DNA of 57,798 bases from assembly GCA_947166275.1 (NCBI GenBank), contig CAMVDP010000010.1, positions 1 through 57,798 of the forward strand. Direction: 5' to 3'. A program made the position numbers and the translations under genes. Of the stretch, positions 37,939-54,066 are shown in pieces. Within the stretch, counting starts at the first letter, position 1; every line of letters begins with the position of its first letter. A model generated the notes under the pieces. The model worked only from the letters and a program-made list of their open reading frames with translations. It was not told the origin of the DNA and ran no database searches. Source of the DNA: an uncultured Clostridia bacterium. GTDB taxonomy: Bacteria; Bacillota; Clostridia; Oscillospirales; Ruminococcaceae.

Positions 37939-37967
37939 TTGACAATGCTGTTGATTTTTGATATAAT
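37939..37967 (+). promoter_or_regulatory. Consensus sigma-A promoter of the ABC/DUF5696 cluster
   Basis: TTGACA (37939-37944), 17-bp spacer, TATAAT (37962-37967). The leader contains a palindrome GGCATA-AC-TATGCC (37983-37996), close to the transcription start, where a repressor could act. Confidence 0.9.
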
Positions 37968-38041: not shown

Positions 38042-38743
38042 ATGGACAAAATACTCAAAGCAGAGCATATATCCCGTGATTTCGATGTCGGAAACGGGAA
38101 TGTGATACATGCGCTCACCGATGTGGACCTTGAAGTGAATGAGGGAGAGCTTGTCTGCCTGCGCGGAAGATCGGGTTCAGGAAAGACCACGCTTATCAAC
38201 ATTCTCGGCGCTCTTGACAGACAGAGCGGCGGAAGCGTTTACTTCTGCGGTCGGGATATCGGCGCGTTAAGTGATAAGGAACGCGACAAACTGCGGCGTA
38301 ACGAGCTTTCATTTGTATTTCAGTCTGTGGCTCTGATATCCACGATGACAGCGCTGGAAAATGTGGAGCTGTCACTGCGGCTCGCGGGACACCCGATATC
38401 GGGTAGGACAAAGCGGGCTAAAGAGTGTCTTACCCGAGTCGGGCTTGGCAAGCGAATGGATCACAGACCGGGCGAGCTGTCGGGCGGTGAACAGCAGCGT
38501 GCGGCTATTGCACGCGCAGTCGCGGCAAAACCGAAGCTGATATTCGCAGATGAACCTACCGCGGCGCTCGATTCGAACACCGGTACTGCTGTGCTCGCGC
38601 TGTTCCGGGAGCTTGTGCATGATGACGGGATAACAGTAGTCATGACAACGCACGATGAAGCTATGATGGAGCTTGCGGATGTTGTTTACGCACTTGAGGA
38701 CGGCAAAATAGTAAACGTTATCAGGAACGATATACCATTATAA
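38042..38743 (+). CDS. ABC transporter ATP-binding protein, LolD/MacB type
   Basis: A 233-residue ATPase. Walker A is GRSGSGKTTLINILGALDR, the signature is ELSGGEQQRAAIARAVA, Walker B is LIFADEPTAALDSNTG and the H-loop VVMTTHDEAMME. Spacing and the GALDRQSGGSVYFCGRDIG block are those of LolD/MacB-type ATPases, which normally drive FtsX-like permeases, not sugar importers. No FtsX-like permease lies in the window. It is first in the 38-51.6 kb cluster. No strong ribosome binding site precedes the ATG (38042), so initiation may be weak. Confidence 0.9.
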   Translation: MDKILKAEHISRDFDVGNGNVIHALTDVDLEVNEGELVCLRGRSGSGKTTLINILGALDRQSGGSVYFCGRDIGALSDKERDKLRRNELSFVFQSVALISTMTALENVELSLRLAGHPISGRTKRAKECLTRVGLGKRMDHRPGELSGGEQQRAAIARAVAAKPKLIFADEPTAALDSNTGTAVLALFRELVHDDGITVVMTTHDEAMMELADVVYALEDGKIVNVIRNDIPL

Positions 38744-38762
38744 TATATATAGGAAAACAGAT

Positions 38763-39701
38763 ATGCCAAAGACCGTATTGTTAGCGCCCCCCGAAAATGT
38801 CATGGTGCGGTGTGACGATCTCGTAAAGATATACAAAAGCAAGGGTATCGAGGTAATGGCGCTGCAGGGACTCGATCTGACGGTGGAGCGCGGCGAGCTT
38901 ATGGGCATTGTGGGTGCCTCCGGAAGCGGAAAATCCACGCTGCTGAATATGCTTGGCGGACTGGACAGACCTACGGCGGGAAGCCTGTATGTTGACGGCA
39001 AGGATCTGCTGAAATTTTCAGATAAAGACTTTATTGAATATAAACGAAAAACCGTAGGCTTTGTGTGGCAGAACAACGCGAGAAACCTGATACCGTATCT
39101 GACGGCGGTGGAGAACGTTGAAATGCCGATGCTGTTCAGCGGGTATGAAGACCGGCGAAAGCGTGCGGAGCACCTGCTTGAGATGGTCGGGCTCGGCGAG
39201 CGAAAAGGTTCGATGCTCGGACAGCTTTCGGGCGGTGAACAGCAGAGAGTCGCGATAGCGATAGCACTTGCAAACAATCCGAAGCTGCTGCTTGCGGATG
39301 AACCCACGGGAGCTGTGGACACAAAGACCGCGGGTAACGTGCTTGAGGTGTTCAGGCGGCTGAATCGTGAGACCGGTGTTACGGTGATAATCGTGACGCA
39401 TGATACCAATCTCGCAAAGTCGATAGACCGTGTTGTCGCGATACGCGACGGCAAGACATCAAGTGAGATGATACGTCGCAAGCCGGTCATTACGGGAGTT
39501 TCTTTCGAAGAGCTCACCGAACGGCAGCAGGCCGAGATACGCTCGGCAGAGGAAAACGGCGGACAAGATGAGCTTGTGCTGCTTGATAAGGCGGGACGGC
39601 TCCAGATACCGAAGGAGTACCTGAAAACGCTCGGCATAAAGGGCGGCGACAGGGTACGTGTCGAGCTTGAAGACGACAGGATAAGTATATATAAGCAGTA
39701 A
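38763..39701 (+). CDS. LolD/MacB-type ABC ATPase fused to a C-terminal AbrB-like domain
   Basis: A 312-residue protein. Residues ~15-235 form an ABC ATPase (VGASGSGKSTLLNMLGGLDR, QLSGGEQQRVAIAIALAN, LLLADEPTGAVDTKTAG, IVTHDTNLAKS). After a ~35-residue linker, residues ~272-312 (LLDKAGRLQIPKEYLKTLGI then KGGDRVRVELEDDRISIYKQ) read as a SpoVT/AbrB swapped-hairpin domain, which normally binds DNA or dimerises. It starts 19 bp after the first ATPase gene, so the two probably form a heterodimer. A DNA-binding tail on a transport ATPase is unusual; it may simply mediate dimerisation. Confidence 0.85.
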   Translation: MPKTVLLAPPENVMVRCDDLVKIYKSKGIEVMALQGLDLTVERGELMGIVGASGSGKSTLLNMLGGLDRPTAGSLYVDGKDLLKFSDKDFIEYKRKTVGFVWQNNARNLIPYLTAVENVEMPMLFSGYEDRRKRAEHLLEMVGLGERKGSMLGQLSGGEQQRVAIAIALANNPKLLLADEPTGAVDTKTAGNVLEVFRRLNRETGVTVIIVTHDTNLAKSIDRVVAIRDGKTSSEMIRRKPVITGVSFEELTERQQAEIRSAEENGGQDELVLLDKAGRLQIPKEYLKTLGIKGGDRVRVELEDDRISIYKQ

Positions 39702-39750
39702 TGCTGCTTAAATAAAAAAATACCGGTTCGAATGAACCTTAAACATTCGC

Positions 39751-39769
39751 TTCCCGTTTTATTCGGGAA
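39751..39769 (+). other. Short hairpin before the solute-binding protein gene
   Basis: TTCCCG and CGGGAA separated by 7 bases, just before the ribosome binding site. It has no T-run. It may adjust relative expression of the ATPase and solute-binding protein genes. Confidence 0.35.
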
Positions 39770-39791
39770 ATAAGGAAAGGTGGAGCTTATT

Positions 39792-42758
39792 TTGGGCAGA
39801 AAGAAAAAGATACTTGCAATACTTCTGACCGCAGCGATGATGATATCCTCGCAGACATTCCCGTCATTCGCGGACAACGACGGCGATGACAGCGCGCAGA
39901 ACTCCGAGGTATCCACGATAAAGAATATCATGAATACCGGCAACAGGGATTCGACATACAGCGCTTACTACGAAAAATACAAGGACGAGACCTTTCCGAA
40001 GGCGGAGATAGTCATTGAGGCAAAGGACGGTGTTGCCGGCAAGGACGTCTACGAGGAAGAGCCTCTCTATGAGATCACCGATTACAACGGACAGGAGAAC
40101 TGCGTTGTCTGGACGAACAACCGCGGTACCTTCGAGTATGACTTTGAGGTGGAGAAAGAGGGTAACTACTGCCTTGAATTCTTCTATTACACATTATCCG
40201 GCGGAAGCACCACAGTTGACGTTGGTATAAAGCTTGACGGAGATTATCCCTTTACCGCCTGCAACGACATCACCCTCGACAGATACTGGGAGGATGCTTC
40301 CGAGATCAAGAAGGACAGCAAGGATAATGAGCTCAAGCCTACACAGATTGAGAAAGATATGTGGGTAAAATATCCCGTGAAGGATAAGGAAGGCCTTTTC
40401 AACTCGCCCTATTTCTTCCATCTCACAAAAGGAAGCCATAAGCTCCTGATCGAGGGTATCAGAACAAACATCGTGCTCAAGACGATGACATTCAAGAACT
40501 ATGACAATCCGCCCGTTTATGTGGCACCCTCACAGAGCGATATCGAAAATACAATGCCGCTCAACACAGGAAAGAACGATATAGGCTCTACCACCGTTCT
40601 TATCCAGGCAGAACAGCCGGCATACAAGACAGCAGCTACCCTGTACGCGACATTTGACCGTACATCGAGCTATGCGAGCCCCTCACACCCCACAAAGCAG
40701 AGATACAACACCATAGGCTCCGATACATGGAAAAAGGCAGCCCAGGCGATAACATGGAATTTCACTGTTCCCGCCGACGGATATTATAACTTCTCGTTCA
40801 AGGCAAGACAGAACAAGATGCGCGGTTTCTACTCCAACAGACGCATCTACATCGACGGCGAAGTGCCAAATGACCAGATGGATATAGTATCCTTCCCGTA
40901 CGACCCTAACTGGTACACCCAGAGACTCAAGGATGCGGACGGCAACGACCTCTACATATTCCTTGAAGCCGGTAATCATACCATCACGATGGAAGTTGTA
41001 CCCGGCGATATCGGCGAGATCATGAGAAGACTCGATGACCTCGTTTATAAACTCAATTATTATTACAGACGCATACTTATGATAACCGGTCCGTCGCCTG
41101 ACGAGTACAACGATTACCTCGTCGACAGACAGATACCCGAGCTTATCCCCGTATTCAAAAATGCGATAAACACTCTTTATGATGAAAAAGCAAATATAGA
41201 AAAGCTCGGTCAGGGTTCGGAAGCTTCCTCGCTCCAGTCCCTCGCAGTCATTCTCCAGCGCTGCGTTGACAAGGTAGACGATATCCCGCAGATGGTCGGT
41301 ACGCTGAAAGACTACATCTCCGCGGTATCCGCGTGGATGAGAGACTATCGTGACCAGCCGCTTGAGCTCGACTATATCGAGGTTCTCACAGTACATGAAC
41401 AGCCCGGCAAGGCTAACGGCAACTTCTTCGAGGAGTTCGCATTCGGCTTCCAGGCATTCATCGGTTCCTTCTTTGAGGACTATACGATGCTTTCCGACAC
41501 GAGTGAAAAGTCCCTCAACGTATGGGTATCTCTTGGCCGTGACCAGGCTACCGTCGTTAAGGATCTCGTTGATAACGACTTCAACCATAACAATACCGGC
41601 GTTCAGGCGAGCATAAACCTCGTACAGGGCGCTATCCTCGAAGCTACTCTCGCGGGCAAGGGTCCTGATATAGCACTGTTCCTCGGCGGAGACTTCCCGA
41701 TCCAGTGCGCGGCAAGAGGACTTCTCGTAGATATCTCTGAGTTCAAGGACTATGAAGATATCGTAAAGAGCAGATTTACGCCCACCATAGAGACTCTGTA
41801 TTCGTACAACGGCGGAGTTTACGGACTTCCCGTTTCACAGATCTTCCCGATGATGTTCATGCGTACAGATATCCTTGAGGAGCTCGGCATCAAGAATCCT
41901 ATCGATCGTATCAAGACATGGGATCAGCTTATCGAGATAATACCCGTGCTCCAGCGTTCGTACCTCACGGTGGGACTTGTACAGCCTACCTCGAACCTTT
42001 CAAGCTCGATATTCGAGTCCGGTGACACGTTCTCTATGCTCGTGCTCCAGACAGGTAACAACATCTACGTTGACGACCTAACAAAGACCACCTTCGACCA
42101 GAAGGAAGTAGTCGACGTATTCAAGAAGTGGACAGATTTCTATACTATCTATGACTTCGAGCAGACTTACGACCCGTTCACACGTTTCAGGACCGGTGAG
42201 ATGCCGATAGTCATCAACAACTACACGTTCTTCAACCAGCTTACGGTATCGGCTCCGGAGATAAAGGGTCTGTGGGACTTCACACATGTTCCCGGAACAC
42301 CCGATGATACCGATATCCACGGCAATCCGATAGGAAACATAAACTATTCGGCGAACTCCAGCAGCGCCGGCGCGGTAATATTTACAAAGTGCGTTGACAA
42401 GAACGCGGCATGGGAGTTTATCAAGTGGTTCACCTCAGATGATATCATGACCAGCTACGGAAGGACCATAGAGGGTCAGATGGGTCAGATGGGACGTTTC
42501 GATACTGCGAATGTAAATGCTCTCGCACAGCTTCCGTGGTCGAACTCCGAGTACGAGAAGATATCGGATGCAATGTCAAAGACTGTGGAGATCCCGATAA
42601 TCCCGGCTTCCTACGCTACGACGCGTCATGTGAAGAACTCCTTCAGAGCTGTCGTAAACGACGCATGGAACCCGAGATACGCACTCTCGTCCTATAACAG
42701 AGACATCAACTCCGAGATCAAGAGAAAGAACGAAGACCTCGCTCTTATAAGCAAGTAA
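39792..42758 (+). CDS. Large extracellular solute-binding protein with N-terminal carbohydrate-binding-like domains
   Basis: A 988-residue secreted protein. The TTG at 39792, seven bases after GGTGGAG, gives a good signal peptide (MGRKKKILAILLTAAMMISS, cleavage after SFA near 26); no lipobox is seen. Two beta-sandwich regions resembling carbohydrate-binding modules follow at about 75-230 (GTFEYDFEVEKEGNYCLEFF) and 270-400 (ITWNFTVPADGYYNFSFKA). After a helical linker, residues ~570-960 form a family 1/8 solute-binding fold (NVWVSLGRDQATV, GKGPDIALFLGGDFP). Ordinary sugar-binding proteins are 400-550 residues. It is probably the receptor of one or both permease pairs downstream. Ligand unknown, likely an oligo- or polysaccharide. 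Confidence 0.88.
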   Translation: MGRKKKILAILLTAAMMISSQTFPSFADNDGDDSAQNSEVSTIKNIMNTGNRDSTYSAYYEKYKDETFPKAEIVIEAKDGVAGKDVYEEEPLYEITDYNGQENCVVWTNNRGTFEYDFEVEKEGNYCLEFFYYTLSGGSTTVDVGIKLDGDYPFTACNDITLDRYWEDASEIKKDSKDNELKPTQIEKDMWVKYPVKDKEGLFNSPYFFHLTKGSHKLLIEGIRTNIVLKTMTFKNYDNPPVYVAPSQSDIENTMPLNTGKNDIGSTTVLIQAEQPAYKTAATLYATFDRTSSYASPSHPTKQRYNTIGSDTWKKAAQAITWNFTVPADGYYNFSFKARQNKMRGFYSNRRIYIDGEVPNDQMDIVSFPYDPNWYTQRLKDADGNDLYIFLEAGNHTITMEVVPGDIGEIMRRLDDLVYKLNYYYRRILMITGPSPDEYNDYLVDRQIPELIPVFKNAINTLYDEKANIEKLGQGSEASSLQSLAVILQRCVDKVDDIPQMVGTLKDYISAVSAWMRDYRDQPLELDYIEVLTVHEQPGKANGNFFEEFAFGFQAFIGSFFEDYTMLSDTSEKSLNVWVSLGRDQATVVKDLVDNDFNHNNTGVQASINLVQGAILEATLAGKGPDIALFLGGDFPIQCAARGLLVDISEFKDYEDIVKSRFTPTIETLYSYNGGVYGLPVSQIFPMMFMRTDILEELGIKNPIDRIKTWDQLIEIIPVLQRSYLTVGLVQPTSNLSSSIFESGDTFSMLVLQTGNNIYVDDLTKTTFDQKEVVDVFKKWTDFYTIYDFEQTYDPFTRFRTGEMPIVINNYTFFNQLTVSAPEIKGLWDFTHVPGTPDDTDIHGNPIGNINYSANSSSAGAVIFTKCVDKNAAWEFIKWFTSDDIMTSYGRTIEGQMGQMGRFDTANVNALAQLPWSNSEYEKISDAMSKTVEIPIIPASYATTRHVKNSFRAVVNDAWNPRYALSSYNRDINSEIKRKNEDLALISK

Positions 42759-42778
42759 GAAATCAGGAGGAACAGGAA

Positions 42779-43714
42779 TTGACTAAACAGGAAAAGTCTC
42801 TCTATATCGAGGACAATAAGTTCCGATACACATTGAGAGAAATGAAAAAGAATATCGGGGTCTACGGACTTATTGCTCCGTACTTCGTACTGTTCTTGAT
42901 ATTTATGATCATTCCGGTCATCATTTCGCTCCCTATGGGATTTACCAACTTCAATATGGCGCAGTTCCCCCGCTGGGTAGGACTCAGCAACTTCTACTCG
43001 CTGTTTCTTGAGGACGAGGTATTCCTGAAGGCTATCGAGAACACGCTTGTGTTTGCGGTGGTAACGGGACCTATAAGCTACATACTCTGCTTCATACTTG
43101 CGTGGCTCATAAATGAGCTTCCCGGGCCGATGAAAACGATCTTCACATTCGTTTTCTACGCTCCGACGCTCGCAGGTAACATCTACACCACCTGGCAGCT
43201 CATATTCTCCGGTGATACCTATGGTATAATGAATGCGTACCTGATCAACCTCGGTATCGCGAAGGGCGCAATACAGTGGCTCACCGACGCGAACTACATC
43301 ATGGGCGTTCTGATAGTGGTACAGCTGTGGATGGCGCTTGGCGCGGGCTTCCTCGCGATACGCGCAGGTCTTCAGGGTATCCCGAGGGACCGTTATGAAG
43401 CGGGTGCTATCGAAGGCATCAAGAACAGAGGTCAGGAGCTTATCTATGTAACTATCCCGGCTATGGGTCCGCAGCTTATGTTCGCTGCGGTAATGCAGAT
43501 AACTTCGTCATTCACGGCAGGCGACATCGGGCGTATGCTCACCGCCTTCCCGACTACCGACTATGCGGGTCATACGATAATGACTCACGCATTCGACTAC
43601 GGCTCGATAAGATACGAAATGGGCTATTCTTCGGCGATATGCTTCGTGCTGTTCGCGGTAATGCTCATTGCCAACTGGGCAATCAAGAAGCTGCTTGGCA
43701 AGTATCTCGATTAA
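42779..43714 (+). CDS. Carbohydrate ABC transporter permease, MalF type (pair 1)
   Basis: A 311-residue inner-membrane permease with about six transmembrane segments. The EAA loop reads YEAGAIEGIKNRGQELIYVT, which contacts a MalK/MsmK-type ATPase. It starts with TTG behind AGGAGG, 20 bp after the solute-binding protein gene. It pairs with the MalG-type permease that follows. Confidence 0.93.
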   Translation: MTKQEKSLYIEDNKFRYTLREMKKNIGVYGLIAPYFVLFLIFMIIPVIISLPMGFTNFNMAQFPRWVGLSNFYSLFLEDEVFLKAIENTLVFAVVTGPISYILCFILAWLINELPGPMKTIFTFVFYAPTLAGNIYTTWQLIFSGDTYGIMNAYLINLGIAKGAIQWLTDANYIMGVLIVVQLWMALGAGFLAIRAGLQGIPRDRYEAGAIEGIKNRGQELIYVTIPAMGPQLMFAAVMQITSSFTAGDIGRMLTAFPTTDYAGHTIMTHAFDYGSIRYEMGYSSAICFVLFAVMLIANWAIKKLLGKYLD

Positions 43715-43768
43715 GCCGAACGGCTGTCACAAAACAAAAAATTACGATCAACCGAAAGGACGGTAGTC

Positions 43769-44629
43769 ATGAGACCCAGAAAATCCAGAAAGAAATATGG
43801 CGGGAGCCGCGGCGGCGACATAGCCATTTTTATACTGCTGATGCTGCTCGGACTGTTCATGCTGTTCCCGATCTATCTCTCGGCGATACAGTCCATAAAG
43901 CCTTCGGAGGAACTGTTCCTCTTCCCGCCGAAGCTTTACGCTATGGCACCTACAAATCAGAACTACGTTGACCTTATCAACACAGCTTCGAACATGTGGG
44001 TACCGTTCAGCCGATACATATTCAACTCCGTATTCGTTGCGATAGTAGTTACCGTCGCGCAGCTCTTATTCTCCTCCTCCGCGGCGTACGCGCTCGCGAA
44101 GGTGCAGTTCCCCGGCAGAAAGATGCTCAACAAGATAATTGAGATCACCCTTCTGTTCACGAGTACGGTACTTTACATAATGCAGTACATCGTAATGGCG
44201 ACCATCGGTATCATCGATACCTACCTTGCTATAACGCTTCCGTACATTGCGACTTCCATGGGACTGTTCCTTATGAGACAGTTCATAGGTCAGCTTCCCG
44301 ACGCGCTCATTGAGGCGGCTTACCTCGACGGCGCAGGTCAGATAAGGATATGCTGGCAGATAGTTATGCCGAACGTAAAGCCTGCGTGGCTCACGCTTAT
44401 GATCTTTGCGTTCAACGGCGCATGGCAGATCAACGGATATTCATTCATCTATAACGAAGCATTAAAACCGATCCCTACGGTATTGCAGCAGATAAGCGCC
44501 TCGGGTATCGCACGTGCGGGTGTCGCGGCAGCGGCTACCGTTGTGCTGATGATACCGCCGATGCTGATATTCCTGCTGTGTCAGAGCTCAGTCGTTGAAA
44601 CAATGGCACAGAGCGGTCTTAAAGATTAA
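43769..44629 (+). CDS. Carbohydrate ABC transporter permease, MalG type (pair 1)
   Basis: A 286-residue permease with six transmembrane segments. The EAA loop is LIEAAYLDGAGQIRICWQIV. The basic N-terminus (MRPRKSRKKYGGSRGGD) precedes the first membrane segment. It partners with the upstream MalF-type protein; the cluster's own ATPases are of the LolD type, so an MsmK-type ATPase must come from elsewhere, possibly the gene at 1-121. Confidence 0.93.
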   Translation: MRPRKSRKKYGGSRGGDIAIFILLMLLGLFMLFPIYLSAIQSIKPSEELFLFPPKLYAMAPTNQNYVDLINTASNMWVPFSRYIFNSVFVAIVVTVAQLLFSSSAAYALAKVQFPGRKMLNKIIEITLLFTSTVLYIMQYIVMATIGIIDTYLAITLPYIATSMGLFLMRQFIGQLPDALIEAAYLDGAGQIRICWQIVMPNVKPAWLTLMIFAFNGAWQINGYSFIYNEALKPIPTVLQQISASGIARAGVAAAATVVLMIPPMLIFLLCQSSVVETMAQSGLKD

Positions 44630-44654
44630 CAGATATCAAGAAAGGATGATTTTA

Positions 44655-46250
44655 ATGTCGTTACGCAAAAAGCTTGCGGCTGTGGCTATGGCTGCCGTCG
44701 TATCGCTTACCGCTCTTTCGGTCTCGGCCGGTGCCGACGAGCCGTATACGGGCTATAACTACGACTGGTGGGGCGACCCGATACCCTCGCAGAACGGCTT
44801 CGTAGTCGACAAGGTCGTTGACGGAAGCGACATGGGACTTGACAAGCTCGATTACAGCGACAAGTCAAGCACCATGCAGGCGCAGCTCAAAAACCTCTCG
44901 GAGCCTGCGGATATATTCATAGATCAGAAATTCGGAAAGTTCTATATCGCGGACAGCAAAAACAACCGTATCATTGTTACCGACGAGAACTTCGACCCGA
45001 AGAATACAAGAGTCATCGATACTCTGCACTACGGGAGCGAGTTTCCGGAAAGCACCAGTACGATAAAGAAGACGACATTCAAGAACCCGCAGGGCGTGTA
45101 TGTCAGAACAAACACAGAGGGCTACACCCGCATATACGTGGCGGATTACGATAACAACAGAGTCGTTGCCTTCAATGAAAACAATGAGATCGTAATGGAG
45201 TATGTACGTCCGTCAAGCGATGTGTTCGATGAGGATAAGACTTTCAATCCCAAGAAGGTCATTGTTGACAGCGCGTTCAACGTGTATGTCATCGTTCCTT
45301 CGATAACACAGGGTGCTCTCCAGTTCTCGGAGTTCGGACTGTTCAATTCCTACTATGGCGCGAACCGAGTAGAGGCTACCGCCGAGGTCATCGCACAGCA
45401 GTTCTGGAAGCTCATCTACACCCGTGACCAGATAATCGCGATGCGCCGTTCGGTCGCTATCTCGATATCGAACCTCGATGTTGACGAGGAAGGCTTCATC
45501 TACACCGTTACCGAGACCAAGAGCGCCGATACCGACGTTCTGAAGAAGCTCAACCCGGCGGGTACGAACATATTCATCAAGCTCGGTTATTCGGAGAACA
45601 CCTTCGGTGATTTCGCAACAAGATATTACAAGGGTACCAGCTACTCCTCCGCGATAACGGACGTTGATGTTGACGAGCAAGGCAACATCTACCTGCTCGA
45701 CTTCGCAACGGGACGCGTGTTCCAGTACACCGACGAGTGCGACCTTCTGTTCATCTTCGGTACGAAGGGCTACAAGAACTCGCAGGGCACCCAGAAGGGC
45801 ACGTTCCGCTCGGTATCGGCGGTCGAGACATACCATGACAAGGTTTATGTAGTGGATAACATCAAGAACAGCATAACCGTGTTCAAACAGACGGAGTTCG
45901 GCGCTATCGTGCAGAAAGCGATAAAGCTCTTCAATGAGGGTCTTTACGATGAGGCTAAAGCTCCGTGGGAGGAAGTATTAAGGCGCGACGCGAACTATTG
46001 GCTCGCTTATATCGGACTCGGAAATGCTTACCTGAACCAGAATGATTATCAGACGGCGCTCGATTACTTCTACCGCACTTCACGCGCGGGCTACAACAGA
46101 GCGTTCAAGAGCTTCCGAATCGAATTCATAAGGGCGAACTTCAACTGGATGCTCATAATAGTGCTTGTTATAATCGTGGCTCTGATAGTTTTAAGCTATG
46201 TGCGTAAATCTATCAGGAAGAAAAAAGCGGCTGCAAAAGGGGGTAAATGA
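44655..46250 (+). CDS. Secreted NHL-repeat and TPR protein with C-terminal membrane anchor
   Basis: A 531-residue protein. The ATG at 44655 (after AAAGGATG) gives a signal peptide ending SVSAGA. NHL-type propeller blades appear as FYIADSKNNRIIVTD (~95), IYVADYDNNRVVAFNE (~160), NIYLLDFATGRVFQYTDE (~344) and VYVVDNIKNSITVFKQ (~397). TPR repeats follow (~430-480) and a transmembrane segment (~500-520) with a Lys-rich cytoplasmic end. Propellers of this type bind proteins or sugars. It overlaps the YIP1 gene (ATGA). A membrane-anchored scaffold on the outer face is the likely role. Confidence 0.82.
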   Translation: MSLRKKLAAVAMAAVVSLTALSVSAGADEPYTGYNYDWWGDPIPSQNGFVVDKVVDGSDMGLDKLDYSDKSSTMQAQLKNLSEPADIFIDQKFGKFYIADSKNNRIIVTDENFDPKNTRVIDTLHYGSEFPESTSTIKKTTFKNPQGVYVRTNTEGYTRIYVADYDNNRVVAFNENNEIVMEYVRPSSDVFDEDKTFNPKKVIVDSAFNVYVIVPSITQGALQFSEFGLFNSYYGANRVEATAEVIAQQFWKLIYTRDQIIAMRRSVAISISNLDVDEEGFIYTVTETKSADTDVLKKLNPAGTNIFIKLGYSENTFGDFATRYYKGTSYSSAITDVDVDEQGNIYLLDFATGRVFQYTDECDLLFIFGTKGYKNSQGTQKGTFRSVSAVETYHDKVYVVDNIKNSITVFKQTEFGAIVQKAIKLFNEGLYDEAKAPWEEVLRRDANYWLAYIGLGNAYLNQNDYQTALDYFYRTSRAGYNRAFKSFRIEFIRANFNWMLIIVLVIIVALIVLSYVRKSIRKKKAAAKGGK

Positions 46251-46891
46251 ATATGAGATTTGATCTTGATCTTCCTGCCTGGAAATGGCCGTTTTACGTG
46301 ATGAGGCACCCGTTCGAGGGTTATGAAGACCTTCGATGGAAAAAAGGCTACAACATGAAAGTCGCGTGGGTCATCGTTATCGCGTTCTTCATCATAAGCG
46401 TCGCGAGCGCGCAGTTCACGGGCTTCCTGTTCAACAGGACCTATGTAAAGGTGTTCAACATCGTTCCGTATTTCTCATCGTCGGTAATTCTGTTCCTGAC
46501 ATGGGTGATAGGAAACTGGTCGCTGTGTACGCTGTTTGACGGCGAAGGTACCATGAAGAATATCTTCTGTGTATCGGCATATGCGCTACTGCCTTATCTC
46601 TTCTCCGAGGTGATAGTTATAATCGCCAGCAACTTCCTGCTTCGCACGGAGGGCGGATTCATAACCTTCTTCAGATACCTCGGCATCGTATGGTCGGTCG
46701 TGCTGATGATATCAGCTATGAAGACCGTACATCAGTACTCGATACCGAAAACGCTCGTCGCGATGTTCTTCACGGTCGTTGCGATGGCAATCATCCTCTT
46801 CCTTGCGGTACTGCTGCTGACACTGTTCCAGCAGGTATTCGTATTCGGTTATTCCGTATATACGGAGCTTATGTACAGATTCAGTATTTAG
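46247..46891 (+). CDS. YIP1 family membrane protein
   Basis: A 214-residue protein with about five transmembrane segments, starting with a Trp/Pro-rich cytoplasmic part (PAWKWPFYVMRHPFEGYEDL) typical of bacterial YIP1-domain proteins. The segment GTMKNIFCVSAYALLPYLFS is also family-typical. It overlaps the NHL/TPR gene stop. Its role in bacteria is unknown; its repeated association with DUF5696 and sugar permease genes suggests a membrane component or assembly factor of this system. Confidence 0.82.
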   Translation: MNMRFDLDLPAWKWPFYVMRHPFEGYEDLRWKKGYNMKVAWVIVIAFFIISVASAQFTGFLFNRTYVKVFNIVPYFSSSVILFLTWVIGNWSLCTLFDGEGTMKNIFCVSAYALLPYLFSEVIVIIASNFLLRTEGGFITFFRYLGIVWSVVLMISAMKTVHQYSIPKTLVAMFFTVVAMAIILFLAVLLLTLFQQVFVFGYSVYTELMYRFSI

Positions 46892-46936
46892 CAACGGTAA
46901 TTCGTAAAGATATGACCATATATTGGAGGTTATAAA

Positions 46937-49279
46937 ATGCAAAGTATAAGGAAAAGGCTGCTTGCCTGCTGCCTCGCCGCGGTGATATCGGTCTCCGCAG
47001 CTTCGACAGCAGTGTTGTCGGTGGCGGACGATACCGCAGATATCGCGGATGCTCCCGCAGATGACGGTGCCGCAGCCGAAGAGATATCGGAGGAGGATAA
47101 CGGCATATATGTGACCGAGGAAGACGCTCTCGCGGATATGAAGGTATTCGCCGAGAACTCCCGTCTCGCCCTGTATGTCAATGAGAAGACCGCCGTGTTT
47201 GCTATCGAAGACAAAAAGAACGGACACAAGTGGTGGTCGGCTTACTACAACACCGATTCTTCCAACAAGACAAGACTCAGCAAACGCAGCACGCCTATAT
47301 CCATAGATGTCGTAAGCACCGAGACCAAGACAGTGGAAACATCGGTACGTGCGTACGATTCAAACGTCAAGAAAAAGGTCGAGAAGATCGACGGCGGTGT
47401 GCGCTTTACATTCAGCTACACAAAATATGATATCGACGTACCGCTTGATATCATCATCAACGCCGACGGTACGTTCAGCGCTACGGTACACTCGGACATG
47501 ATCGCCGAGAACCGTCCCGAGACAAATCATACCACCGGTGATACGGGATATCAGATACTCAACATTCACGTGCTTGAGAACCTTGCTTCGACAGCATACA
47601 CCGAGGAAGGCATGATAGTCGTTCCCGACGGCTCCGGTGCAGTTATCAACTACAACAACGGCACGAGCTACGGCGACAACAACACTTTCAAGTCAAAGGT
47701 GTACGGTGATGACCTCGCGGTCGGCAAGCTTTACGCGGGCGACCTTATCGAGAAGGTAACGATGCCGGTAATGGCGAATATAAATAAGTCCGCCGGCGCG
47801 ACGCTCGTTATGATAGCTACCGACGGTGACGCGTATGCTACCGAGCACGCTATGGTGACCGGACAGAACGTTACAGACCTCAACTCGTGCTGGTTCGAGT
47901 ATTCCGTCAGAACGAGAGACAACTACTTCATGGGCAACAGCAACACGGCGCTCACAGTTTATGAGGCCGAGGGTATAAAGGTCGGCGACCTTACCACCAC
48001 ATACTATCCGTTATACGGTGATGATGTTTCTTTCACCGACGTTGCCGATGTTTACAGAGACTACCTTGTTAACACGATGGGTGTTCAGCAGAAGGTGAAG
48101 GCCGAAAAGGCTCCGTATTACCTCACGCTGTTCGGCGGAACGGTCAAGACCCAATCCGTGCTTGGCTTCCCGGTGGATATCCAGACTGCCGCGACGACCT
48201 ACTCACAGGCGCTCGATATGGTGAAGCAGCTTGAAAGCAAGGGTGTAAACGACATCAAGATAATCTACGAGGATTTCAGCGAGACCGGTATAGTCGGCGA
48301 GATAGCCGCGAACTTCCAGTATTCATCAAAGCTCGGCGGTAAGAATGATTACGTCGAGTTCAAGAATTACATCGAGTCGCAGGGATATGAACTGTTCCCG
48401 AGCTGCGACATTATGGAGTTCTACAAGTCCGGTAACGGCTACTCGTTCACACTCAACTCGTCGAAGCAGATAACCAAGGCATACGCAACGCAGACACCGT
48501 TTGACCTCGCGTTCGGACTGCCGCATCTTACCAAGAAGAGCTGGACGATACTATCGCCGTGGTATTTCCCGGATATTTTCAACAAGCTCAGCGACAGCTT
48601 CAGTGCCGAGAATACAAAGTGCATCTCGCTCAACCAGGCTTCGAATACGCTGTACAGCGATTTCAGTCGCGAGAACAGCGACGGCAGGGCTTACATAGTA
48701 AGAGAGGATACGATTAATATCCTGAAGGACGGCTATTCCAAGCTCAAGAATGACGGCTTCACGGTACTTGCCGAGAATGCTAACCAGTATCTGCTGCCGT
48801 ATGTGGACTACATCAAGGATGTTCCGCTCTATTCTTCAAACTACGATATCTTCGATTATGATATCCCGTTCGTGGAAATAGTGCTGCACGGTCTGATACC
48901 GTACACCACAAGGGCGATAAACAGATGCGCGGATGCTGAAGAGCTGAGAATGCTCGCACTTCTTACGGGTACACCGATACATTACGAAATGATGTACAAC
49001 AACCCGAACAAGTTCGCGGACAGCGAGTATGATGTACTCTACTACACCAACTACACCGGCTGGATCGACCGCTCGGTCAATGAGTATAAGCTCTTTGACG
49101 AGATCGTGAAGTCCGTTTCGGATCAGCAGATCAAGAAGTATGAGAGACTCGCGGCGGGTGAGTATCAGACAACATTCGCAAACGGCAAGACAGTATATGT
49201 CAACACCGAAACTAATGAAGTGAAGTTCAACGGAAAATCGGTGAGCTTGAAAGATTACGGATTGGGGGTCGATGAATAA
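46937..49279 (+). CDS. Secreted DUF5696 protein, possible glycoside-hydrolase-like fold
   Basis: A 780-residue exported protein with a signal peptide (MQSIRKRLLACCLAAVISVS, cleavage near residue 30). Residues ~50-330 look like a beta-sandwich domain (NGIYVTEEDALADMKVFAEN, NKKNGHKWW-like opening, VPDGSGAVINYNNGTSYGDN). Residues ~400-740 alternate strands and helices in a way that suggests a TIM barrel (KGVNDIKIIYEDFSETG, ECISLNQASNTLYSDFSREN-like, FTVLAENANQYLLPYVDYI). DUF5696 proteins recur beside sugar ABC and YIP1 genes in Firmicutes. A carbohydrate-active enzyme or binding protein is my inference; catalytic residues are not established. Confidence 0.8.
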   Translation: MQSIRKRLLACCLAAVISVSAASTAVLSVADDTADIADAPADDGAAAEEISEEDNGIYVTEEDALADMKVFAENSRLALYVNEKTAVFAIEDKKNGHKWWSAYYNTDSSNKTRLSKRSTPISIDVVSTETKTVETSVRAYDSNVKKKVEKIDGGVRFTFSYTKYDIDVPLDIIINADGTFSATVHSDMIAENRPETNHTTGDTGYQILNIHVLENLASTAYTEEGMIVVPDGSGAVINYNNGTSYGDNNTFKSKVYGDDLAVGKLYAGDLIEKVTMPVMANINKSAGATLVMIATDGDAYATEHAMVTGQNVTDLNSCWFEYSVRTRDNYFMGNSNTALTVYEAEGIKVGDLTTTYYPLYGDDVSFTDVADVYRDYLVNTMGVQQKVKAEKAPYYLTLFGGTVKTQSVLGFPVDIQTAATTYSQALDMVKQLESKGVNDIKIIYEDFSETGIVGEIAANFQYSSKLGGKNDYVEFKNYIESQGYELFPSCDIMEFYKSGNGYSFTLNSSKQITKAYATQTPFDLAFGLPHLTKKSWTILSPWYFPDIFNKLSDSFSAENTKCISLNQASNTLYSDFSRENSDGRAYIVREDTINILKDGYSKLKNDGFTVLAENANQYLLPYVDYIKDVPLYSSNYDIFDYDIPFVEIVLHGLIPYTTRAINRCADAEELRMLALLTGTPIHYEMMYNNPNKFADSEYDVLYYTNYTGWIDRSVNEYKLFDEIVKSVSDQQIKKYERLAAGEYQTTFANGKTVYVNTETNEVKFNGKSVSLKDYGLGVDE

Positions 49280-50448
49280 TGAGTGAGCTTGAAAACGAGA
49301 AGCTCGAAGGCGCCGTTTCATCGACTGCCGACGAGGTCACGGAAACAGTGACAGAGACAGTGACCGAAACTGTCGCGGAGAACATCACCGAGGTCGCCGA
49401 GGAGGCACCGAAGAAGAAAGCGGCAGTTCACATGACCGCTTCCGCAGCGGCACTCAACGCCGAGGGCGAGGTGGATATCCGCCGCAGAAAGCCCCGCGAG
49501 GTAAAACAGATAAAGGAATCGAAGATATCCTACGAGCGCAAGAAGGGGCTGTATGGCTATGGCTTCGTGGCTCTGTGGATAGTCGGCGTGCTTTATATGT
49601 TCATAGTCCCGATGTGCCAGTCGCTGTGGTACGCGATGTGCAAGACCGAGCTCGTTAATGATGCCGCAAGACAGGCGGAGCTCGGAATGAGCGGCCCGGG
49701 CATCTACACCGAGTGGAACAATTTCGAGAATATCCGCTGGGCATTCACTATAAACCCGGATTACCCGAAGAACCTCGCTACATCGCTTGGCGAGACAGCG
49801 TACACCGTACCGCTCGTACTCGTGTTCTCGCTGTTCGTGGCGCTGCTGCTCAATGACAAGTTCAAGGGCAGGACTCTGGCGCGAGCGATATTCTTCCTGC
49901 CGGTACTGATAGCGACAGGTCCCGTGCTCTCGGTCATCAACGGTGATATGCTTTCGCAGGGAATATCCGACGCGGAGCAGTTTTCCGCCTTGTTCAAAAC
50001 GAACTTCGTTGAGGACTTCCTGATGTTCATGGGTCTCAATAATATCAGCCAGTCGCTTGCGGACGCGGTATCCGAGGTCACGAGCTCGATGCTTAACCTG
50101 ATCTGGGATTCCGGTATCCAGATACTGATATTCATATCCGCGCTGCAGACGATACCGACCTCCGCGAAAGAGGCGGCATCCATGGAGGGCGCTACGGGCT
50201 GGGAGTTCTTCTGGAAGATAACCTTCCCGACCATCTCCCCGATGATCCTTGTAAACCTCGTTTATACGACCATCGACGCGTTCGTAAAGTCCGACAACCC
50301 CGTAATGCGTCAGGTAATGACCTACATCAAGCAGTGGGAGTATGACCACGCTTCGGCAATGGCTTGGATCTACTTCGCGATAATCGGCGTGATACTTGCG
50401 GCGATAACCGGAATAGTTTCGAGATTCATATTCTATCAGGTAGATTAA
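49279..50448 (+). CDS. Carbohydrate ABC transporter permease, MalF type (pair 2)
   Basis: A 389-residue permease. An unusual acidic, Thr/Glu/Val-repeat N-terminal extension of ~90 residues (ETVTETVTETVAENITEV) precedes six transmembrane segments. The EAA loop is SAKEAASMEGATGWEFFWKI. The stop of the DUF5696 gene and this start share a base (TAATG), so the two are translationally coupled. The extension may mediate a cytoplasmic contact not present in pair 1. Confidence 0.9.
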   Translation: MSELENEKLEGAVSSTADEVTETVTETVTETVAENITEVAEEAPKKKAAVHMTASAAALNAEGEVDIRRRKPREVKQIKESKISYERKKGLYGYGFVALWIVGVLYMFIVPMCQSLWYAMCKTELVNDAARQAELGMSGPGIYTEWNNFENIRWAFTINPDYPKNLATSLGETAYTVPLVLVFSLFVALLLNDKFKGRTLARAIFFLPVLIATGPVLSVINGDMLSQGISDAEQFSALFKTNFVEDFLMFMGLNNISQSLADAVSEVTSSMLNLIWDSGIQILIFISALQTIPTSAKEAASMEGATGWEFFWKITFPTISPMILVNLVYTTIDAFVKSDNPVMRQVMTYIKQWEYDHASAMAWIYFAIIGVILAAITGIVSRFIFYQVD

Positions 50449-50460
50449 GGAGGTGCTTCA

Positions 50461-51567
50461 ATGGACAACGAAAATATTCAGGCTGTACCGGAAGCAGCTT
50501 CCGTAAAGACAAAATCCAGAAGACAGCTCAAGAAGGAAGAAAAGAAGCGCTTGAGCAAGTTCCATGTCAGCAGCTGGGAGATAATCACCCACTACTTCAA
50601 GTATAACGACGCGGAAAAGAAGCATTACAAGTACATTCTCGGCAGACGCGTGGGCGAGAAGGTATGGCCCGTGTTCCGCTTCCTTATCCTCTTCGGACTC
50701 GCTTTTGTCGTAGTTTACCCGATACTTTACATGATCTCCTGCGCGATAAGACCGCAGGTAGATATGACAGACCCGTCCATCATGTGGATCCCGAAGACCT
50801 TCACGCTTTCGAACCTGGTCGAGACATGGGTGGCTATCGACTACCCCGAGCTCGTATGGGATACCGTGACCGTCAACGTGGTCTGCTCGATAATCCAGGT
50901 ACTTACCTGCTCGATAGTCGGATATGGCTTCGCGCGATTCAAGTTCAAGGGTAAGGGTATTATGTTCGGCATAGTTATAATGCAGATCGTAGTTCCTACA
51001 CAGGTAATCCTTATCCCGCAGTACATGCAGTTCAGATACTTCAACCCGCTCGGCATCGTCGGTCTGTTCAACGGCGGCGAAGCTGTGAACCTTGCGGACT
51101 CGCCTCTCGCACTCTACATGATGGCGTTCTTCTGCAACGGTATAAGAGCCGGTCTGTTCATCTTCCTGTTCAGACAGTTCTTCCGCGGACTTCCGAAAGA
51201 GCTTGAGGACGCTGCATACCTTGACGGCTGCGGCCCGTTCGAGACCTTCGTAAGGATAATGATACCCAACGCGTCCAACTCCTTCCTCACCGTATTTATC
51301 TTCTCGGTAGTATGGTACTGGAACGACTCGTATGTTTCGGGAATGTTCTTCACCAAGTCCAATACTGTTGCGCTTATGGTAAGCAACCTGCATCAGACAA
51401 TATCCGCGTACTACAGCCCCACCGGCACCCCGACGGGTGTTGCGTCCGACTGGCTGGTATGGATCGAGTCAGGATGCTTGCTCTCGATACTACCGATACT
51501 TGTTATGTACATCTTCTTACAGAAGAACTTCGTTGAAGGTATCGAGCGTTCCGGTATCGTCGGTTAA
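50461..51567 (+). CDS. Carbohydrate ABC transporter permease, MalG type (pair 2)
   Basis: A 368-residue permease with a charged ~70-residue cytoplasmic N-terminus (RRQLKKEEKKRLSKFHVSSW) and six transmembrane segments. The EAA loop is ELEDAAYLDGCGPFETFVRI. It follows the second MalF-type permease by 12 bp with an AAGGAGG site. It is the last gene of the cluster and is followed by a strong terminator. Confidence 0.9.
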   Translation: MDNENIQAVPEAASVKTKSRRQLKKEEKKRLSKFHVSSWEIITHYFKYNDAEKKHYKYILGRRVGEKVWPVFRFLILFGLAFVVVYPILYMISCAIRPQVDMTDPSIMWIPKTFTLSNLVETWVAIDYPELVWDTVTVNVVCSIIQVLTCSIVGYGFARFKFKGKGIMFGIVIMQIVVPTQVILIPQYMQFRYFNPLGIVGLFNGGEAVNLADSPLALYMMAFFCNGIRAGLFIFLFRQFFRGLPKELEDAAYLDGCGPFETFVRIMIPNASNSFLTVFIFSVVWYWNDSYVSGMFFTKSNTVALMVSNLHQTISAYYSPTGTPTGVASDWLVWIESGCLLSILPILVMYIFLQKNFVEGIERSGIVG

Positions 51568-51585
51568 AATCCCGATATAAACAAT

Positions 51586-51620
51586 ATCTCCCGCTTGCAG
51601 GTGCAGGCGGGAGATTTTTG
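51586..51620 (+). terminator. Terminator of the ABC/DUF5696 cluster
   Basis: ATCTCCCGC pairs with GCGGGAGAT around a 12-base loop and is followed by TTTTTG. It is the first of three related ATCTCCC hairpins in 400 bp. Confidence 0.9.
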
Positions 51621-51848: not shown

Positions 51849-51877
51849 TTGACATATCGGCGGTTATGGTATATAAT
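51849..51877 (+). promoter_or_regulatory. Consensus sigma-A promoter of the metal efflux genes
   Basis: TTGACA (51849-51854), 17-bp spacer, TATAAT (51872-51877). Confidence 0.9.
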
Positions 51878-52203: not shown

Positions 52204-54066
52204 ATGGGAAGCCTGACAAAAAAGCAGAAAAACACGTTCTTGCGTATCATAGTCACGTTCGTGCTGCTCGCGGGACTTATCGTCTGTGAGCATCTCGGAG
52301 TGTTCGGCGAGCTTCCGTGGTGGGCGCTGACGCTGATATTCCTCGTGCCGTACGCGATAATAGGCTATGACATTGTCATCAAGGCGGTTAAGAACATTGC
52401 CCGCGGGCAGGTGTTCGATGAGAACTTCCTCATGCTCGTGGCGACAGTCGCGGCGTTCTGCATCGGAGAGTACTCCGAGGCAGCGGCGGTCATGCTGTTC
52501 TATCAGGTAGGTGAGCTGTTCCAGAGCTACGCCGTAGGCAAGGCAAGGCGCTCGATTACCGACCTTATGGACATTGTTCCCGAGTATGCCAATATCGAAT
52601 GGGACGGCGAGATAAAGCAGGTAGACCCGGATGACGTTGAAGTCGGCGATATCATAGTGATAAAGCCGGGTGAGCGCATACCGCTTGATGCGGTAGTTAC
52701 CGCGGGCGAGAGTATGATAGATACCGCGGCGCTGACGGGTGAGTCCGTGCCGCGCAGAGCCGCACCGGGCACAGAGCTTGTAAGCGGCTGCATCAATGTG
52801 AGCGGTACCCTCAAAGCGCAGGTGACAAAGGCATTCGAGGACTCCACAGTTACGCGCATACTTGAGCTTGTCGAGAACGCATCGAGCAAGAAGGCTCACG
52901 TTGAGAACTTTATCACGCGTTTCGCGAAGGTATATACTCCCGCGGTGACTGCGGGGGCAGTGCTGCTGGCGGTGATACCGCCGCTGTTCGACGGGAACTG
53001 GGGCGAGTGGATAGCGAGAGCCTGCACGTTCCTCGTAATTTCATGCCCGTGCGCGCTGGTGATATCGGTGCCGCTGGGATTTTTCGGAGGCATAGGCGCG
53101 GCATCGCGTGCCGGAGTGCTCGTCAAGGGCGGCAACTACCTCGAAGCCGTGTCGAAGCTTGACACGATAGTGTTTGACAAGACAGGAACGCTCACAAAGG
53201 GCGAGTTTCGAGTAAACGACATACGCCCGGCAGGCTGCACGAAAGAGGAGCTTCTGGAGACAGCGGCGCTTGCGGAGTGCTTTTCCGACCACCCGATAGC
53301 GGTTTCGGTACGCGAAGCATACGGCAAGTCTGTTGACCCGGCGCGGGTGGCAAATTCGGGAGAGACTGCCGGACACGGCGTGACTGCCGAAGTGGAAGGG
53401 CGGCAGGTGCTGCTCGGTAACATGAAGCTGATGCGGGCGAACGGGATAACTGCCGAGCCGCTTGACTGTGCAGGCACGGTAATATATGCGGCGGCTGACG
53501 GAGCGTATCTCGGAGCGATAGTGATATCCGACGGTATCAAGGACGGTTCCGCGGAGGCAATAAAAGCGCTCAAAGCCGCGGGAGCAAAGCGCACGGTCAT
53601 GCTTACGGGTGACCGCAAGCCGGAAGCAGAAGCTGTGGGCGCACAGCTTGGCATAGATGAGGTTTACCCCGAGCTTCTTCCGGTGGACAAAGTAAACGCG
53701 GTGGAGAAGCTGCTGTCTGAAGGCGGGCGGCTCGCGTTTGCCGGTGACGGCATCAATGACGCGCCGGTCCTTGCACGCGCCGATGTAGGTATCGCCATGG
53801 GCAGCATGGGTTCTGACGCGGCTATCGAAGCTGCCGACATTGTTATAATGGACGACGATCTTCGCAAAATACCCACTGTTATGCGTATAGCGTCAAAGAC
53901 CATGCGTATAGTTCGCGAGAACATCGTATTCGCACTGGCGGTCAAGGCTATCGTGCTGGTGCTCGGTGCGCTTGGCATAGCCAACATGTGGCTTGCAGTA
54001 TTTGCCGATGTGGGTGTTGCCGTGATCGCGATACTCAATTCGATGAGGACACTTCGTACAAAATAA
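52204..54066 (+). CDS. Zn/Cd/Pb-translocating P-type ATPase, CadA type
   Basis: A 620-residue P1B-ATPase exporting divalent metals. The actuator TGES is at ALTGESVP, the metal-binding CPC at residues 281-283 (VISCPCALV), the phosphorylated Asp at about 325 (DKTGTLTKGE), HP at about 363 (SDHPIA) and GDGINDAP at about 514. It lacks an N-terminal HMA domain; that domain is the separate preceding gene. The CadC-type operator upstream supports a Zn/Cd role. A bidirectional terminator follows. Confidence 0.92.
   Translation: MGSLTKKQKNTFLRIIVTFVLLAGLIVCEHLGVFGELPWWALTLIFLVPYAIIGYDIVIKAVKNIARGQVFDENFLMLVATVAAFCIGEYSEAAAVMLFYQVGELFQSYAVGKARRSITDLMDIVPEYANIEWDGEIKQVDPDDVEVGDIIVIKPGERIPLDAVVTAGESMIDTAALTGESVPRRAAPGTELVSGCINVSGTLKAQVTKAFEDSTVTRILELVENASSKKAHVENFITRFAKVYTPAVTAGAVLLAVIPPLFDGNWGEWIARACTFLVISCPCALVISVPLGFFGGIGAASRAGVLVKGGNYLEAVSKLDTIVFDKTGTLTKGEFRVNDIRPAGCTKEELLETAALAECFSDHPIAVSVREAYGKSVDPARVANSGETAGHGVTAEVEGRQVLLGNMKLMRANGITAEPLDCAGTVIYAAADGAYLGAIVISDGIKDGSAEAIKALKAAGAKRTVMLTGDRKPEAEAVGAQLGIDEVYPELLPVDKVNAVEKLLSEGGRLAFAGDGINDAPVLARADVGIAMGSMGSDAAIEAADIVIMDDDLRKIPTVMRIASKTMRIVRENIVFALAVKAIVLVLGALGIANMWLAVFADVGVAVIAILNSMRTLRTK

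Follow-up and report, generated by a model that had tools for sequence, protein, structure and literature searches.

Background

According to Table 3 of Rodionov 2021 (PMC8579813), the xylan degradation locus of Caldicellulosiruptor bescii includes an operon xloEFG-X-GH129-axoFGE-xynF-xynE-xynD-xyn10A-xynX-xynB, for which that paper names two transporters, XloEFG and AxoFGE, and gives differential expression on xylan and Avicel and an assignment to XynR and AraR. Binding of XynR to the operator of this locus is reported as measured (PMC12285236), and the solute-binding protein (SBP) Athe_0181 is reported as one of those with the strongest specificity to complex substrates (PMC5865380); going by gene counting, Athe_0181 would be the SBP encoded right after the second MalG-type permease, G2. 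For A. bescii, deletions of msmK and of one transporter locus are on record. In this study I compare this operon with a run of ten genes in a contig from an uncultured Clostridia bacterium (CAMVDP010000010.1, 57,798 nucleotides, hereafter the window), in which two ATP-binding cassette (ABC) ATPases, ATP1 and ATP2, and a large SBP are encoded together with two permease pairs, F1G1 and F2G2, and with NHL/TPR, Yip1 and DUF5696 proteins.

The window is contig C10 of an assembly of 1.88 Mb that is 81.4% complete (G000). Among the matches listed, the closest named relatives of its DUF5696 protein are found in metagenome-assembled genomes (MAGs) of rumen and gut Clostridia (at most 79% identity), followed by Ruminococcus flavefaciens and its kin, and the source of the cluster is a gut or rumen Clostridia bacterium. 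A search of the open-licence literature of PMC yielded no paper that treats the module as a unit across the family or describes its Yip1/NHL part, and none that uses the name DUF5696. Proteins annotated as glycoside hydrolase (GH) family 129 in Paenibacillus O199 were, by the account in PMC4867992, seen on crystalline cellulose only.

Results and discussion

The window cluster belongs to a type of plant-glycan uptake operon that is widely conserved and whose core is already annotated, and induced by xylan, in the hot-spring bacterium C. bescii. In the genome G179, which is taken as C. bescii with its gene order as part of the basis, the genes run SBP, F, G, NHL/TPR-Yip1, DUF5696, F, G, a 601-amino-acid (aa) SBP, GH43, GH10, GH39, GH10, an esterase and GH39. 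As this is the published operon order, the 'X' of C. bescii would correspond to the NHL/TPR-Yip1 fusion (716 aa, with Pfam matches to NHL, TPR and, at 521-691, Yip1), and its 'GH129' to the DUF5696 protein. The window shows the same core order, SBP-F-G-X-DUF5696-F-G; a linked second SBP (AxoE) and xylanolytic enzymes are not found at its operon, and a P-type ATPase gene lies downstream instead. The initial annotation of this DNA knew of no characterised system with such a composition, but the C. bescii operon has it, along with regulon and transcriptome data.

In a phylum sample of 398 genomes, DUF5696 was matched at E <= 0.001 in 46 genomes, above the curated cut-off in 39 and at E < 1e-100 in 37. 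The full-length places number 56, and 50 of these were taken as phylum loci, the other six being the window, G179 (read later as L191/L192), G082:C81, G323, G240 and G204. The named loci are the 80, out of 568, that score best against the window, so that this set leans toward close relatives. Gene order was scored over these 130 loci with matches above 60 bits and gaps below 700 bp. The eight core genes (SBP, F1, G1, NHL/TPR, Yip1, DUF5696, F2, G2) form one uninterrupted run in this order in 24 of the 50 phylum loci and 67 of the 80 named loci, and 12 of the 13 named loci with an incomplete order touch the end of the locus. Among the other 26 phylum loci, 14 have NHL+Yip1-DUF5696-F2-G2 only, five carry SBP-F1-G1 behind G2, five are cut by the end, and the last two are L062, where G1 is interrupted, and L069, where Yip1 is below the score limit. 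The NHL/Yip1 part stands immediately ahead of DUF5696 in 48/50 phylum and 77/80 named loci, and Yip1 is fused onto the C-terminus of the NHL/TPR protein in 30/50 and 0/80, respectively. By these counts, NHL/TPR-Yip1-DUF5696-F2-G2 holds together most tightly, with SBP-F1-G1 as the partner it usually has. The cluster is more than a chance arrangement, because its order is widely kept across the phylum genomes examined; the initial annotation, which took the parts as one unit and staked this on conservation elsewhere, is borne out on this point by the eight-gene order and the fusions.

A 1.3 kb open reading frame (ORF) on the opposite strand interrupts the G1 gene of L062 (3672-6531) and is possibly an insertion element. 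The record of L089 is titled Bacteroides sp. and holds a ten-gene operon of the Clostridia type; it is probably a mislabelled or misbinned MAG. Up to 12 named loci, including L117, L118, L122, L123 and L132, have ribosomal protein genes (S10-type region, named by eye) downstream of the operon.

The reading I favour, with moderate confidence, is a scaffolded double-permease importer of the CUT1 type for plant-type oligosaccharides, with ATP1 and ATP2 serving a separate pump made of a membrane fusion protein (MFP) and an FtsX-like permease. The large SBP would capture chains by CBM35-like modules and an MBP-like cleft, and a membrane-anchored NHL/TPR-Yip1 unit would hold the SBPs and the GH129-like DUF5696 protein, which may bind or trim the glycan, next to the permeases. 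F1G1 and F2G2 would import overlapping ranges of products, the latter probably also fed by smaller, exchangeable SBPs, and a shared MsmX-type ATPase encoded elsewhere may energise both pairs, while ATP1/ATP2 would drive an MFP-FtsX pump encoded on contig C6 and co-expressed with the importer. This reading is based on the gene order, fusions, folds and co-occurrence observed here and on the xylan induction given for the C. bescii counterpart (PMC8579813); from these I infer the physical complex, the role of DUF5696, the pairing of the ATPases and the substrate in the window organism.

Alternatively, a shared transcript may encode two independent importers, of which NHL/TPR-Yip1 and DUF5696 would serve just one, as its sensor or enzyme, instead of scaffolding both. 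In favour of this are the 14 phylum loci lacking SBP-F1-G1 within 700 bp of the remaining genes, the five in which it sits behind G2, and the separate naming of XloEFG and AxoFGE in Rodionov 2021. However, the eight-gene order kept in both sets of loci makes such an arrangement unlikely.

The permeases are of the CUT1 importer type. BPD_transp_1 is above its cut-off in G1, F2 and G2, as in the MalF/MalG-type pairs of CUT1 importers; F1 has no Pfam match at E <= 0.1, with weak UgpA-type NCBIfam matches instead, and the two pairs of the initial annotation are thereby present. EAA-like loops, which I take to be the motif of MalF/MalG-type permeases, are seen in the window permeases, and an MBP-like SBP, as expected of a CUT1 importer, is present. 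Two ATPases with an OB_MalK domain, neither linked to the operon, are encoded in the window assembly, and this domain was found in 19/19 genomes tested. F2 and G2 of the window have charged N-terminal extensions of about 60-90 residues, and many R. flavefaciens loci have an F2 of about 300 aa, against 389 aa in the window.

In the predicted model of the large SBP, two beta-strand stretches precede the SBP domain (Table 1), in line with the extra beta regions noted earlier for this protein. A fold search with the whole protein returned a list filled by the MBP part, and 16 of 44 relatives have CBM_35 matches. The view that a single SBP for two pairs belongs to the design fared less well: SBP genes on contigs C15 and C40 of the window assembly have no permease among the neighbours read, and one SBP for two pairs is therefore not established. 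Additional SBPs of one cluster adjoin the core in 37/50 phylum loci, one of them (L073) on the opposite strand, and a second SBP of that cluster is linked in 0/80 named loci. Directly behind the core operon, L042 (13155-19999) and L037 (10525-17400) each carry about five SBP genes of a single cluster in tandem. The close relatives G398 (L084) and G399 (L085) have two open frames, each about 1000 aa long and with an SBP_bac_1 match, which suggests a second copy of the large SBP.

The genes around the phylum loci offer a view on the substrate. I tallied 200 flanking proteins, each 230 aa or longer and second SBPs excluded, that come from 47 of the 50 phylum loci, taking the top 25 families per tally. 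Common families, with two to six members each, are GH42, GH26, GH31, alpha-galactosidase, GH29, GH3, GH10, GH43, GH95 and alginate lyase, besides LacI and AraC regulators. Flanks with such mixed glycan enzymes and regulators suit a general glycan importer that has its specificity determined at each locus. The proposal that the cluster captures and imports a glycan is thus reasonable in view of the enzyme-rich flanks and the xylan-induced counterpart, although the novelty of composition claimed with it does not hold.

DUF5696 (PF18952) was matched in the window at 450.2 bits against a cut-off of 25.6, over model positions 2-612 of 612, and Pfam confirms the NHL/TPR, Yip1 and DUF5696 genes between the permease pairs, as first annotated. 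The predicted fold of the DUF5696 protein matches two active GH129-type enzymes, NagBb and ZgGH129. It could therefore be an active exo-glycosidase, as the 'GH129' label says, which would make the operon an ordinary cluster of import plus hydrolase; besides the fold, this is favoured by D575, present in 56/56 close and 16/20 diverse members, and by D640, present in 54/56 close members and acidic in 18/20 diverse ones. However, the protein has no match to GH129 (PF11308) at E <= 0.1, no barrel acid is invariant across both alignments (56 close and 20 diverse members), and the metal-site columns of NagBb, as aligned, are not conserved. An active enzyme is a serious possibility, but one I lean against, and the GH129 label seems doubtful from these comparisons. 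The hidden Markov model alignment to NagBb stops short of Asp435, which is conserved between NagBb and ZgGH129, and of Glu478, presumably the second member of the GH129 catalytic pair. No PF11308 protein was found in the window assembly at E <= 0.001, and the one in the 398 phylum genomes (G325) aligned poorly with DUF5696 in the barrel. A reading of a single alignment column by which DUF5696 would lack the catalytic Asp of GH129 is withdrawn; at this column, as at three others, NagBb differs from its quadruple mutant 5wzq, and the column is not that of the nucleophile.

The two ATPases at the head of the operon were missed in the initial annotation. Both rank the LolD equivalog TIGR02211 first, at 209.6 and 230.2 bits, below its cut-off of 307.75. 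ATP2 homologues (E < 1e-85) occur in 13 of the 398 phylum genomes, the other 385 having weaker, shorter matches to ordinary LolD-type ATPases. In all 11 of the 13 that are outside the window's family, ATP2 adjoins an FtsX-like permease (by eye; split in two ORFs in L173), with an MFP-like lipoprotein also present in nine, and Pfam confirms FtsX and HlyD-type domains in L169. A profile of the FtsX-like permease was searched in 54 genomes. It matched strongly, away from the operon, in 20 of the 21 genomes whose ATP1/ATP2 are operon-linked, but not in G401, an assembly of 1.6 Mb. The 33 genomes that lack operon-linked ATPases comprise six with the cassette elsewhere and 27 with weak FtsX matches only, and among these 27, ATP2 has no homologue at E < 1e-85 in 18 and no match above 260 bits in nine. 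Operon-linked and FtsX-linked copies of ATP2 have in common an invariant RNL-PYL segment after the Q-loop, a region that faces the membrane partner in ABC ATPases. Eight of the 13 genomes with the ATP2 family are among the 37 with DUF5696 (p = 2.4e-6 over 398 genomes, uncorrected for relatedness), three of the eight under one genus label. The simplest reading of these sequence patterns is that ATP1/ATP2 power the MFP-FtsX pump and that the permeases use an MsmX-type ATPase.

An ATPase pair dedicated to the permeases, that is, a CUT1 importer in which LolD-type ATPases replace MsmX, would explain why ATP1/ATP2 are the first two genes of the apparent operon and stand directly before the SBP in 25/80 named loci and in L072. 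I consider it quite improbable, as the pair is missing from the operon in the remaining loci, ATP2 adjoins an FtsX-like permease in 11 phylum genomes outside the window's family, strong FtsX matches accompany the operon-linked pair in 20/21 genomes and occur in none of the 27 that also lack ATP2, and OB_MalK ATPases are present in the window assembly. ATP1/ATP2 as plain replacements of MalK were rejected on the co-occurrence with FtsX, the absence from many operons and the OB_MalK ATPases elsewhere.

The C-terminal MazE/AbrB-like domain of the ABC ATPase is kept in FtsX-linked (L169-L179) and operon-linked copies, and I know of no description of this pairing. In G337 an MFP-FtsX pair adjoins ribosomal protein genes of the S10-type region. 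A search of the 130 loci found an MFP-FtsX pair downstream of the operon on the same strand in L139 and L144 only. In both, a gene for a GH26 lipoprotein follows the operon; in L139 (14545-20786) this gene and a BioY-like gene (by eye) stand between operon and MFP-FtsX, all on the same strand, and L144 has MFP and FtsX too.

One could go further and imagine an undescribed envelope machine, in which a Yip1-anchored NHL/TPR scaffold couples two permease pairs, a repurposed GH129-like protein and an FtsX-type pump with operon-made ATPases; mechanical work driven by ATP outside the membrane would then assist in passing long glycans on to the importers. Such a machine is compatible with ATP1/ATP2, FtsX and the importer occurring together, and with L139 and L144, where operon, GH26 and MFP-FtsX are linked on the same strand. 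As five genomes with the ATP2 family are without DUF5696, and many with DUF5696 are without the ATPase-FtsX cassette, I regard this as very doubtful.

Several observations weigh against the scaffolded importer with a separate pump. The place of ATP1/ATP2 at the head of the operon in 25/80 named loci is unexplained if they serve FtsX, and 14 phylum loci have no SBP-F1-G1 near the remaining genes. The large SBP of the window has no CBM match at E <= 0.01. One of the two OB_MalK ATPases of the assembly adjoins its own permease pair (L181), so that just the contig-edge copy on C38 is left as a free candidate. Among the nearest genes examined, no glycan enzyme, regulator or second SBP adjoins the window operon, whose neighbours are of ordinary kinds, with DnaX and patatin genes upstream and the P-type ATPase gene downstream.

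The operon consists of ten closely spaced genes on the plus strand at 38042-51567, between a promoter match and a terminator (Table 1). The same-strand cluster, the promoter and the terminator were recognised initially; the count of nine was one short. In 17.5 kb, 41 promoter-like sites were found versus 21.6 expected, just two of them reaching 12/12; the other, at 51849-51877, is upstream of the P-type ATPase gene (52204-54066). Of four joints described as overlapping or nearly so, NHL/Yip1 (4 bp) and DUF5696/F2 (1 bp) truly overlap, but F2 and G2 are 12 bp apart and G1 and NHL 16 or 25 bp, since the NHL gene starts at one of the two positions in Table 1 and not at the TTG at 44595. Such overlaps do not show the control of stoichiometry that was read from them.

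Table 1. Features of the operon in the window
Feature	Position	Strand	Remarks
Sigma-70-type promoter match	37939..37967	+	TTGACA-17-TATAAT, 12/12, 17-nt spacer, TG ahead of -10; consensus match only
ATP1, LolD/MacB-type ABC ATPase, 233 aa	38042..38743	+	ORF and family searches
ATP2, LolD-type ABC ATPase, C-terminal MazE/AbrB-like domain, 312 aa	38763..39701	+	PF04014 24.9 bits, cut-off 24.7
Large SBP, 992 aa	39780..42758	+	beta-strand regions 77-239 and 273-406, helical linker, MBP-like domain 575-990
F1 permease, MalF/UgpA type	42779..43714	+	weak UgpA-type NCBIfam matches
G1 permease, MalG/UgpE type	43769..44629	+	Pfam and NCBIfam
NHL/TPR protein, secreted	44646..46250	+	start 44646 or 44655; hydrophobic, presumed membrane stretch near C-terminus (sequence reading by eye)
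Yip1-domain membrane protein	46247..46891	+	Pfam
DUF5696 protein, GH129-like fold (predicted), 780 aa	46937..49279	+	Pfam and fold match
F2 permease, MalF type, long charged N-terminal extension	49279..50448	+	Pfam and NCBIfam
G2 permease, MalG type	50461..51567	+	Pfam and NCBIfam
Intrinsic terminator, 13 pairs, T-rich tail	51586..51615	+	terminator scan

Conclusions and comparison with known systems

To the annotated core in C. bescii this study adds a family-wide conserved unit, a putative identity of 'X', doubt on the GH129 label, exchangeable second SBPs, and an association with ATPases of a candidate MFP-FtsX pump. Since at least 568 of the 593 stretches in the GTDB collection that matched the search pattern were confirmed to hold a DUF5696 relative, and at least two core genes of the module are present in all 130 scored loci, the module is a common glycan-uptake piece of plant-fibre degraders, R. 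flavefaciens among the named ones, and some of its parts have no known function. Should uptake depend on NHL/TPR-Yip1 and DUF5696, the plain picture of SBP, permease and ATPase in Gram-positive sugar import is incomplete; the link of an importer operon to MFP-FtsX is an additional puzzle.

With the C. bescii operon the window has in common the core order of large SBP, F, G, NHL/TPR-Yip1, DUF5696, F and G. There, however, NHL/TPR and Yip1 form one fusion protein, the core is followed by a second SBP and by xylanolytic enzymes, and LolD-type ATPases are absent in front, whereas the window has these ATPases without adjacent xylanolytic enzymes. With CUT1 importers (MalEFGK2, MsmX-dependent) it shares the MBP-like SBP domain, MalF/MalG-type permeases and an OB_MalK ATPase elsewhere in the genome, but here two permease pairs and the NHL/TPR, Yip1 and DUF5696 proteins are encoded in one run. 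The DUF5696 protein resembles the GH129 enzymes NagBb and ZgGH129 in its predicted fold, at about 14% identity and with no Pfam GH129 match. LolD-type ATPases are common to the MacAB/LolCDE-type systems; here, in contrast, the genes are split over two loci, with two unlike ATPases, one with a MazE/AbrB-like domain, in the operon, and with the MFP and a permease of about 950 aa that has two FtsX stretches on contig C6.

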